From Rhodospirillaceae bacterium SYSU D60007 (lineage in GTDB: Bacteria; Pseudomonadota; Alphaproteobacteria; Reyranellales; Reyranellaceae), in NCBI GenBank assembly GCA_003574685.1, contig QOCQ01000012.1, forward strand, positions 62,001 through 126,000: a stretch of 64,000 nucleotides of DNA, in the 5' to 3' direction. Below are positions 48,726-51,934 of this stretch, piece by piece. The position numbers and the translations under genes are program-made. Position 1 is the stretch's first letter, and each line of letters opens with the position of its first letter. Below the pieces are notes generated by a model, which had not been told where the DNA came from, searched no databases, and was given only the letters and a program-made list of their open reading frames with translations.

Positions 48726-49553
48726 TTGTCGCTTCTGTCTACAAATTGTCGTTTCGTCCGCGGTTTTGCAGTCGCGGGTATAGCGCTGTGTGTCTTCGCA
48801 GATGCGGCAGCCGCAGCCGATCTCGTTCCTCATCGCGCAACCTACGAAATGCGCCTCAGTCCCGGTCGCCGGGCCATGGGCGTGATCGACGTGCGCGGGC
48901 TGATGGTCATGGAGTCCGTCGATGCCTGCGAGGCGTGGGAAACCAAGCAGCGTATCCGGCTGACGTTCCTGCGACCGGATACCGAGGAGTTCGTCACCGA
49001 CTCGGCGTTCACCAGCTTTGAGGCCAAGGACGGCTCATCACTGCAGTTTAGCGTGCGCAACACGCAGAACGGCGAGGTCGAGGAGGAGCTGCGCGGCCAG
49101 GCGGTGATTGCCCAGGACGGCACGGGCCGAGCCACCTTTACTCTGCCCGACCAGCGCAGCTTCGACCTGCCGGTCGGCACGACATTTCCCATGATGCATC
49201 TGTCACAACTTATCGAGCGCGCCAGGCTGGGCGAGAAGGTCGTTGCCTACAACGTGTTCGACGGCGCGCGGCTTGACGGCGCGTTCAAGGTCAATGCCGT
49301 GATCGGGCCACCGCCCAAGCCGCAGCCCGGTTCGGCACCGCGGGGCGACGTGGCGCTGCTGCGCAACCAGCCGGCCTGGCTGATGCGGCTGGCGTTCTTT
49401 CCCGCCGACGATCAGGGAGGCCAGCCGGAATACGAGGTCTCGATGGATTTGCTGGCCAACGGGATTGCCCGTTCGATGGTCCTGGACTATGGCGACTTCG
49501 CCCTCGATGCGCGGTTGCGGCGCATCGAGCTGCTGCCGAGGCCCAAATGCTGA
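48726..49553 (+). CDS. EipB-family (DUF1849) periplasmic envelope protein, copy 1
   Basis: 275-residue precursor that I place at a TTG start, since no in-frame ATG gives a signal peptide. The leader is FAVAGIALCVFADAAAAA. The mature part begins DLVPHRATYEMRLSP, characteristic of EipB, an alphaproteobacterial periplasmic beta-spiral protein needed for envelope integrity. The cysteine in VDACEAWE and the C-terminal cysteine (LLPRPKC) can form the disulfide known in the family. It overlaps the next, paralogous gene by 7 bp. Confidence 0.8.
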   Translation: MSLLSTNCRFVRGFAVAGIALCVFADAAAAADLVPHRATYEMRLSPGRRAMGVIDVRGLMVMESVDACEAWETKQRIRLTFLRPDTEEFVTDSAFTSFEAKDGSSLQFSVRNTQNGEVEEELRGQAVIAQDGTGRATFTLPDQRSFDLPVGTTFPMMHLSQLIERARLGEKVVAYNVFDGARLDGAFKVNAVIGPPPKPQPGSAPRGDVALLRNQPAWLMRLAFFPADDQGGQPEYEVSMDLLANGIARSMVLDYGDFALDARLRRIELLPRPKC

Positions 49554-50362
49554 TGCCGGTTCGCGGCGGTGCGCTCGCCGTCCTGCTCTTCGCCCTCGCC
49601 GCCTCTCCGGCGGCGGCGCAGGAACTGGTGCCTCACCTCGCGGTCTACGAGGTGATCACCGGGCGTGCGCCGGCTGGCGCTTCGCCGCCGCAGATCCGCG
49701 GCACCTACGTCTTTCGCATGCAGGCCGAATGCGGGGGGAACGTGAAGTTCGAGCAGCGCCTGCGTTTCGAGGCGCGGGGGCCCGGCGAGGTCACGGAGAT
49801 CGACCAGACCTCGACTGGCGAGGAATCGCTTGACGGCAAGCGCTATCGCTTCACCCACAAGGCCACGGTCGACGGCAAGCCGCAACCCGAGGTGCAGGGG
49901 GAGGTGGAACCCGGCACGGACAGCGCGGCTGAGGCGCGTTTCAGCCAGCCCTCCGGCCGTGTGGTGCCGTTGCCGGCCGGCACCATGTTTCCGATCGCCA
50001 TCCTGCGCCGCACGGTCAGGGCGGCGCGCGAGGGCGAGACGGGGTTCGAAGGCCGGTTCTTCATGGGTGACAAGCCCGAGCCGCCGCAGGCGGTGTCTGT
50101 CCTGCTGGGTAAGCCGCCGCGACGGGTGAGTGAACTGCCGCCGCCCCAGGGCGACCGCGGCCTGATCCAGGGCCGCGACCGGTTCTACTTCCGGGCCTCG
50201 TTCTATGAAGGCGACGGCAAAGGAACTGGCGAGCCGCGTCACGAGATGAGCAGCGTCACGCTCGACAACGGCGTCGAGATCTGGGGGACGCACGAGCAGG
50301 GCGAGCTGCGGCTGGAGTATCGGCTGATCCGCCTCGAGACGCTGCCCCGGCCGAACTGCTGA
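49547..50362 (+). CDS. EipB-family (DUF1849) periplasmic envelope protein, copy 2
   Basis: 271-residue paralogue of the gene before it, with signal peptide LAVLLFALAASPAAAQ. It shares ELVPHLAVYEV at the start of the mature protein, a cysteine in MQAECGGN, a hydrophobic GTMFPIAIL matching GTTFPMMHL in copy 1, and the same C-terminal cysteine (LPRPNC). Divergence outside these points is high, so the duplication is old. A second ATG at 49553 is the alternative start. It ends 1 bp from the convergent ROK kinase gene. Confidence 0.8.
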   Translation: MLMPVRGGALAVLLFALAASPAAAQELVPHLAVYEVITGRAPAGASPPQIRGTYVFRMQAECGGNVKFEQRLRFEARGPGEVTEIDQTSTGEESLDGKRYRFTHKATVDGKPQPEVQGEVEPGTDSAAEARFSQPSGRVVPLPAGTMFPIAILRRTVRAAREGETGFEGRFFMGDKPEPPQAVSVLLGKPPRRVSELPPPQGDRGLIQGRDRFYFRASFYEGDGKGTGEPRHEMSSVTLDNGVEIWGTHEQGELRLEYRLIRLETLPRPNC

Positions 50363-51277: not shown

Positions 51278-51307
51278 AAGGCCGCCGGAGGCAACTCCGG
51301 CGGCCTT
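51278..51307 (-). terminator. strong hairpin between the repeat protein gene and the ROK kinase
   Basis: A perfect 13-bp stem AAGGCCGCCGGAG/CTCCGGCGGCCTT with a GCAA loop. It lies 28 bp past the stop of the minus-strand gene upstream, so it probably ends that transcript. No long T-run follows. Confidence 0.6.
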
Positions 51308-51334: not shown

Positions 51335-51796
51335 CTACCACCAGGTGAAATAGCGGCGATCACGCCAGTCGAGCCTTCCGTCGTCGTTGCGGTCATGACG
51401 GCGCAGGATGCGCGCGTCGCGCCAGTCCCGCCGGCCGTCGTGGTTGAAGTCGCGCACCCGGCGCCCCTCGCGCCAGTCGCGATCACGCCAGCCGAAATGA
51501 CGGCCATCCCAGCCGTGATGGCGGTGCCTGTCCCAGCCGTGATGGCGGTGCCTGTCCCAACCGTGATGGCGCCCTCGGTCCCAGCCATGGTGGCGGCCTC
51601 GATCCCAGCCATGGTGACGGCCCTTGTCCCAGCCGCCATGTCGCCTGCCGTCCCAGTGGCTGTGCTTGTGCCGGCCGCCATCGTGCCAGCCGTGATGACG
51701 ATGACGCCCGTCCCGCCAGTCGCCGGCGATGGCCTGGGTGCTGAATCCCAGTCCGATCGTGGCGGCGACCAGAGCGGCTATAAGCTTGCGGGTCAT
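51335..51796 (-). CDS. secreted His/Trp-repeat protein with two EF-hand-like loops
   Basis: 153-residue precursor with a clear signal peptide (residues 1-24, ending TQAIAG). Residues 26-100 are rich in His, Trp, Arg, Asp and Gly, and include about six tandem octapeptides of the form WDRGRHHG. After that come two 12-residue loops of EF-hand form, DFNHDGRRDWRD and DRNDDGRLDWRD, with acidic or amide residues at positions 1, 3, 5, 9 and 12. The protein ends FTWW. It likely binds metal (Ni, Cu or Zn on the His repeat; Ca on the loops) outside the inner membrane. No characterised homologue is recognised. Confidence 0.75.
   Translation of the reverse strand: MTRKLIAALVAATIGLGFSTQAIAGDWRDGRHRHHGWHDGGRHKHSHWDGRRHGGWDKGRHHGWDRGRHHGWDRGRHHGWDRHRHHGWDRHRHHGWDGRHFGWRDRDWREGRRVRDFNHDGRRDWRDARILRRHDRNDDGRLDWRDRRYFTWW
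51507..51680. repeat. 24-bp tandem repeats encoding WDRGRHHG units
   Basis: Coding tandem array; on the plus strand the unit begins TCCCAGCCGTGATGGCGG. Unit copies differ at a few bases, so the array is probably expanding and diverging. It is in frame with the secreted protein. Confidence 0.8.
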
Positions 51797-51934
51797 GGTT
51801 TCCTCGCTCCGAAATGCCAGTTACGGGCCCCAACGTTCTTTGTCGAGGCGGGAGCGTGGCCATTGATCTGGTCGGCGCCGGGACGCGATTAAGGAAAGAC
51901 AGGGGCAGGGCGGGGCATTGTGAGGGCGCCGCGC

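Follow-up and report, generated by a model that had tools for sequence, protein, structure and literature searches.

Consecutive loops of canonical EF-hand pairs lie about 36 residues apart, with a hydrophobic residue at loop position 8, and the copper-binding octarepeats of the mammalian prion protein have an eight-residue period with His, Gly and Trp. Among the bufferins, EGKC/EF-hand_5 chimaeras combine a copper-type segment and two EF-hands in one protein; their describers suggest that they may act in Ca2+ homeostasis or signalling as well as in copper homeostasis (PMC12452194). The small periplasmic protein CaBP of the alphaproteobacterium Caulobacter vibrioides (CCNA_02838) has three calcium loops (PMC13171946), and EfhP (PA4107) of Pseudomonas aeruginosa has two calcium loops and binds Ca2+ (PMC9132961). 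In Dx[DN]xDG proteins, including those with thrombospondin type 3 repeats, the helices that flank the motif may vary or be absent and the motif still works (PMC3123361), and Excalibur-type loops bind Ca2+ at ~100 uM in disordered proteins (PMC8391695).

Our literature search found no paper on a His-rich repeat plus an EF-hand in periplasmic proteins. The ORF considered here lies on the minus strand of a 64,000-nt stretch of DNA (the window), at 51335-51796, and it has the following features together with its flanks.

51335..51796, minus strand: coding sequence of a predicted exported protein with His/Trp repeats and calcium-type loops, 153 aa (ORF, syntenic orthologues, codon-level constraint)
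51722..51796, minus strand: Sec-type signal sequence MTRKLIAALVAATIGLGFSTQAIAG, likely cut after AIA (by eye; conserved in all homologues)
51488..51655, minus strand: His/Trp octapeptide array (Tandem Repeats Finder, codon listing, unit pS/pN)
51512..51559, minus strand: the sole recent duplication, two identical 24-bp units encoding WDRHRHHG at residues 80-87 and 88-95 (24/24 identity)
51464..51493, minus strand: remnant of the first loop, GWRDR-(six-residue gap)-DWREG; GWRDRNHDGRVDWRD in 3/3 homologues (alignment)
51416..51451, minus strand: loop DFNHDGRRDWRD, residues 116-127 (pattern and shuffle test)
51359..51394, minus strand: loop DRNDDGRLDWRD, residues 135-146 (pattern and shuffle test)
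51869..51899, minus strand: conserved upstream block of 31 bp, TCTTTCCTTAATCGCGTCCCGGCGCCGACCA, 73-103 bp before the start codon (upstream DNA alignment)
51278..51307, minus strand: strong G+C-rich inverted repeat AAGGCCGCCGGAG-TTGC-CTCCGGCGGCCTT, between the gene and the ROK gene (by eye)

The gene, its locus and its distribution

The ORF is a real gene, because orthologues occupy the corresponding locus in two further genomes of the Vineibacter group (G001 and G003; the genome of the window is G000). In G003, and for one of the two copies in G001, the gene is flanked as in the window by genes for a CmcJ-like protein and a ROK kinase. Long ORFs overlap 51335-51796 in other frames, as might be expected of a chance ORF or an antisense artefact in G+C-rich DNA; this explanation is refuted by the synteny, by the signal sequence kept across the homologues and by the excess of synonymous over nonsynonymous change in this very frame, and we give it virtually no credence. 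The gene has a single copy in its own genome. The first-pass annotation had proposed a small secreted protein, in agreement with the Sec-type signal sequence read by eye: the protein is small and, as predicted from this signal, exported. Its mature form is very basic (~16.6 kDa, pI ~11.6), with 23 His, 15 Trp and 0 Cys.

The neighbours tested are the ROK kinase gene, the CmcJ-like gene (assigned by eye; no Pfam match) and two adjacent overlapping genes for EipB-like envelope proteins (PF08904; window 48810-49550 and 49547-50359, plus strand), which belong to an alphaproteobacterial envelope protein family and form a tandem pair. None of these neighbours points to metal homeostasis or matches an MNIO enzyme. 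The 31-bp upstream block is conserved in the three syntenic genes and, with <=3 mismatches allowed, was matched only once in each of G000, G001 and G003, always here; it is a candidate promoter or operator; a sigma-70 promoter scan did not match it. The inverted repeat downstream is a possible terminator without a T run, and a terminator scan that needs such a run did not list it. Rfam gave no match on the window.

Of the 101 relatives whose genomes were searched, only G001 and G003, both of the same genus, contained clear homologues, so that the family has four members from three genomes: the window protein, G001a and G001b, and the G003 protein. When 75 genomes of the taxonomic family were searched with a profile, only composition-biased weak matches were added, and in the GTDB r220 species genomes three loci were found, two in Vineibacter terrae CC-CFT640 and one in 'Reyranella sp. 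CPCC 100927'. The homology search with the C-terminal loop part that the first-pass annotation had recommended, here run as a profile against 385 genomes of the class, returned the genus homologues and nothing else at E 1e-4 or better. A loop pattern search of the same 385 genomes picked up two more proteins, a single-loop one and an ordinary multi-EF protein, and a tblastn search of plasmids gave no match. Distant members could be missed by these searches, since the queries were short and biased in composition; so far, the protein appears to be found in the genus Vineibacter only. Protein searches of the fourth genome of the genus (G002) found no family match and no match for either neighbour gene; as this genome is 87% complete and has no match for the neighbours, the absence is indistinguishable from a gap.

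Several weak hits (L004, L005, L006, L016, L019-L021) were read and judged to be unrelated composition-biased proteins or frames. L020 (G000:C18:82154-82387) is also a small exported protein; it is rich in Arg, Tyr and His, its signal sequence is similar, and Pfam gave no match. L005:1114-2103, from a genome of the same family (G045), is a 330-aa protein with the short stretch RGKHYGWDRGNHYGWDGN between two similar regions and only a weak DUF533 match, a similar octapeptide style in a different protein. A DNA search also found an Arg/His/Trp-rich C-terminal fragment (RHHGWDRGHHYGW) at a contig end in G002 (L022:2-217, C368), which was not counted as a member, having no calcium loops and no match in the other three genomes. 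The gene near this fragment, presumably a heavy-metal P-type ATPase when read by eye, is a HAD hydrolase by Pfam.

The octapeptide array and the calcium-type loops

Tandem Repeats Finder placed a 24-bp array of 5.4 copies at 51507-51635, in line with the His/Trp octapeptide array described at first pass. At the protein level, a degenerate WDGRRHGG (residues 48-55) is followed by five full units (56-95), reading WDKGRHHG once, WDRGRHHG twice and WDRHRHHG twice in the codon listing, and by a degenerate WDGRHFGW (96-103). The array had also been called recently expanded, which holds for the units at residues 80 and 88 only; all other unit pairs share 16-19 of 24 bases, with differences largely at synonymous sites. 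Among the units at residues 56, 64, 72 and 80, nearly all synonymous sites differ (pS 0.72 to above 1) and the protein is little changed (pN 0 to 0.15), with WDxxRHHG kept. The adjacent His pair is kept in 5/5 full units despite the synonymous divergence. This divergence, together with the identity of the 80/88 pair, indicates that most of the array is old and has been maintained, a single copy being recent. The units thus appear to be constrained, which supports a function for the repeat.

The two loops of EF-hand form reported earlier were recovered at residues 116-127 and 135-146. Both fit DxNxDGxxDxxD (DFNHDG..D..D and DRNDDG..D..D), and at least two canonical loops arise in ~1e-5 of composition-preserving shuffles of the mature window protein. 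The 12-residue EF-hand-type loop (ligands at 1, 3, 5, 9 and 12, Gly at 6) occurs twice in the window protein and two to three times in the homologues, and the linear Dx[DN]xDG motif, followed by an acidic or amide ligand, is present in the window protein as well. Arg occupies position 8 of loop 116-127, and at position 12 there is Asp where EF-hands usually have Glu.

The homologues (G001a, G001b and the G003 protein) have three tandem loops, mostly DRNHDGRVDWRD; the additional loop lies upstream and is broken in the window protein by the six-residue gap. Loss of this first loop in the window lineage is the simplest reading, because both G001 copies and G003 have it. D1, N3, D5, G6, D9 and D12 are kept in 10 of the 11 loops, the exception being DRHHDRRVDWRD, the degenerate middle loop of G001a. 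The three G003 loops agree in all 12 residues, with a mean pS of 0.67 and a pN of 0 (Fisher on mean counts ~6e-5), and the loops of G001a, G001b and G000 go in the same direction; these Fisher values (6e-5 to 0.04) are a guide only, because counts are small and pairs are not independent. Loop residues are kept while synonymous sites diverge, which implies that the loops are under selection.

In all four members, two or more canonical loops occur together with the signal sequence and the seed RHxGW[DE]xGxHxGW. The homologues have one conserved His/Trp seed, and the window gene has an enlarged array. Homologues lacking either part throughout, which the first-pass annotation had named as the sign of an accidental pairing, were not encountered: 4/4 members carry both parts. 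This co-occurrence and the codon-level constraint on both parts support a non-accidental pairing within the genus. The two ends of the window protein differ in affinity: in the C-terminal part, pN is 0.12 against the non-syntenic G001 copy and 0.27 against the syntenic one, and in the signal sequence it is 0.14 against the syntenic copy and 0.20 against the non-syntenic one. These opposite affinities could reflect exchange between copies or ancestral variation.

Fold and function

Consecutive loops are 16-19 residues apart in the window protein and its homologues, which leaves no room for two helices and therefore no consecutive canonical EF-hands. The top matches of the C-terminal part were EF-hand or dockerin models and EF-hand chains in the PDB, all weak. 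Compared with Pfam EF-hand_1, _5, _6 and _7, the window C-terminus scored 11.4-11.9 bits, below the curated cut-offs, and the best EF-hand score was 20.4 bits against a cut-off of 25.9 (EF-hand_5, G003 protein); Dockerin type I gave 15.6 bits for the window C-terminus and 17.7 bits for G001b against a Pfam cut-off of 22.9. The full protein had no Pfam match at E up to 10 and only chance-level matches in NCBIfam, with no match in either to RcnB or other named His-rich metal protein families. AlphaFold2 models of the full protein and the three-loop part were both poor (mean pLDDT 46 and 49, helices at low confidence only), and thus no fold supports the loops. The weak matches (Dockerin_1 E 0.004 to 0.45, EF-hand E 0.0003 upward) and the 36 residues between loops 1 and 3 of G001b, as in an EF-hand pair, might suggest a genuine but degenerate EF-hand or dockerin domain; with every bit score under the curated cut-offs and a consecutive spacing into which two helices do not fit, we consider this very improbable. 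The term EF-hand, as used in the first-pass annotation, therefore describes the 12-residue loop pattern well and is weakened in its strict sense by the spacing and the Pfam cut-offs.

We tentatively favour, at a probability of roughly 0.45, an exported and largely disordered protein that binds Ca2+ through loops of Dx[DN]xDG type and has a putative low-affinity His metal site in its array; we prefer it in view of the close spacing, the missed cut-offs and the poor AlphaFold2 models. The apparent maintenance of both parts by selection suggests that the protein probably binds Ca2+ outside the cytoplasm and may bind copper, zinc or nickel on the array. We infer the place of action and every binding step of the following scheme. 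After Sec export to the periplasm or beyond, the C-terminal tandem Dx[DN]xDG loops would bind Ca2+, an abundant ion outside the cytoplasm, and thereby order the otherwise largely disordered Arg/Trp-rich tail. This ordered cationic, aromatic tail would then hold anionic envelope material. The N-terminal His/Trp array would provide several low-affinity His sites for Zn2+, Cu2+ or Ni2+, its copy number setting the capacity of a buffer, not of a precise sensor. Against this reading stand the Arg at loop position 8, the Asp as last ligand, the four members from three genomes only, the poor models, which lend the loops no fold, the lack of metal genes among the neighbours tested, and the strongly positive character of the protein, which disfavours cation binding.

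Several observations would be consistent with an envelope protein that binds calcium only and whose array is an adhesive or spacer, making cationic and aromatic contacts to lipopolysaccharide or peptidoglycan. Homologues with one His/Trp seed still keep three loops, mature G001b has 5 His only and yet three loops, Arg outnumbers His in every member, and EipB-like envelope genes lie nearby. The conservation of the His pair across all full array units despite synonymous divergence argues against this, and we regard the calcium-only reading as possible, if somewhat unlikely. An Arg/Asp/Trp-rich disordered polypeptide that binds no metal in the cell, with loops that merely resemble calcium loops, would fit the strong compositional bias, the low model confidence and the positive net charge. 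However, the ligand positions stay exactly the same between loops and between species in spite of synonymous change, and composition alone yields two loops in ~1 of 100,000 shuffles, making such a polypeptide an unlikely explanation. It is likewise doubtful that this genus-specific exported protein binds two kinds of metal at once in a coupled way, with Ca2+ on closely spaced tandem loops lacking an EF-hand fold, a transition metal on an array whose copy number tunes capacity, and one site affecting the other. The sensing or buffering of two metals put forward at first pass is hypothetical.

If the favoured reading of a disordered Ca2+ binder is right, this orphan family would have calcium loops too close for EF-hands, kept by selection beside a growing repeat. 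It would offer a compact natural test of Dx[DN]xDG Ca2+ binding without a fold, and of a tandem metal-type repeat expanding under constraint. Its practical weight is modest, the family being known from three genomes.

Comparison with described proteins

Like the MNIO-linked bufferin chimaeras, the window protein is short, with an N-terminal membrane or export signal, a segment of transition-metal type that is predicted to be unstructured, and a pair of Ca2+-type motifs at the C-terminus. Bufferins, however, have Cys in EGKC motifs that are MNIO-modified, whereas the window protein has no Cys, carries His/Trp repeats and misses the EF-hand_5 cut-off; it falls outside the bufferin criterion of a Cys-containing EGKC core with an MNIO gene nearby.

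Two calcium-type loops occur in the window protein as in EfhP; those of EfhP are canonical EF-hands, and we know of no His repeats in EfhP. The likeness of the array to the prion octarepeats is an analogy only, with no homology, and the array has two adjacent His per unit. As in CaBP, Sec export is predicted and three calcium loops occur in the family, and the CaBP middle loop has Arg at position 6, as does the middle loop of G001a. CaBP differs in being EF-hand / CREC-calumenin-like, with Glu at position 12 and no reported His/Trp array (PMC13171946), and in its link to sigV, which was not seen beside the window gene. The ligand pattern is the same as in Dx[DN]xDG linear-motif proteins; compared with thrombospondin type 3 repeats, the window protein has no sequence match to such a family, another spacing and no Cys.

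The first-pass annotation had known of no described protein with this pairing, a claim that the bufferin chimaeras narrow (PMC12452194), as it stands only in that those proteins use Cys and not His/Trp repeats. The idea of the pairing has precedent, and what is new is the His/Trp octapeptide combined with closely spaced loops.
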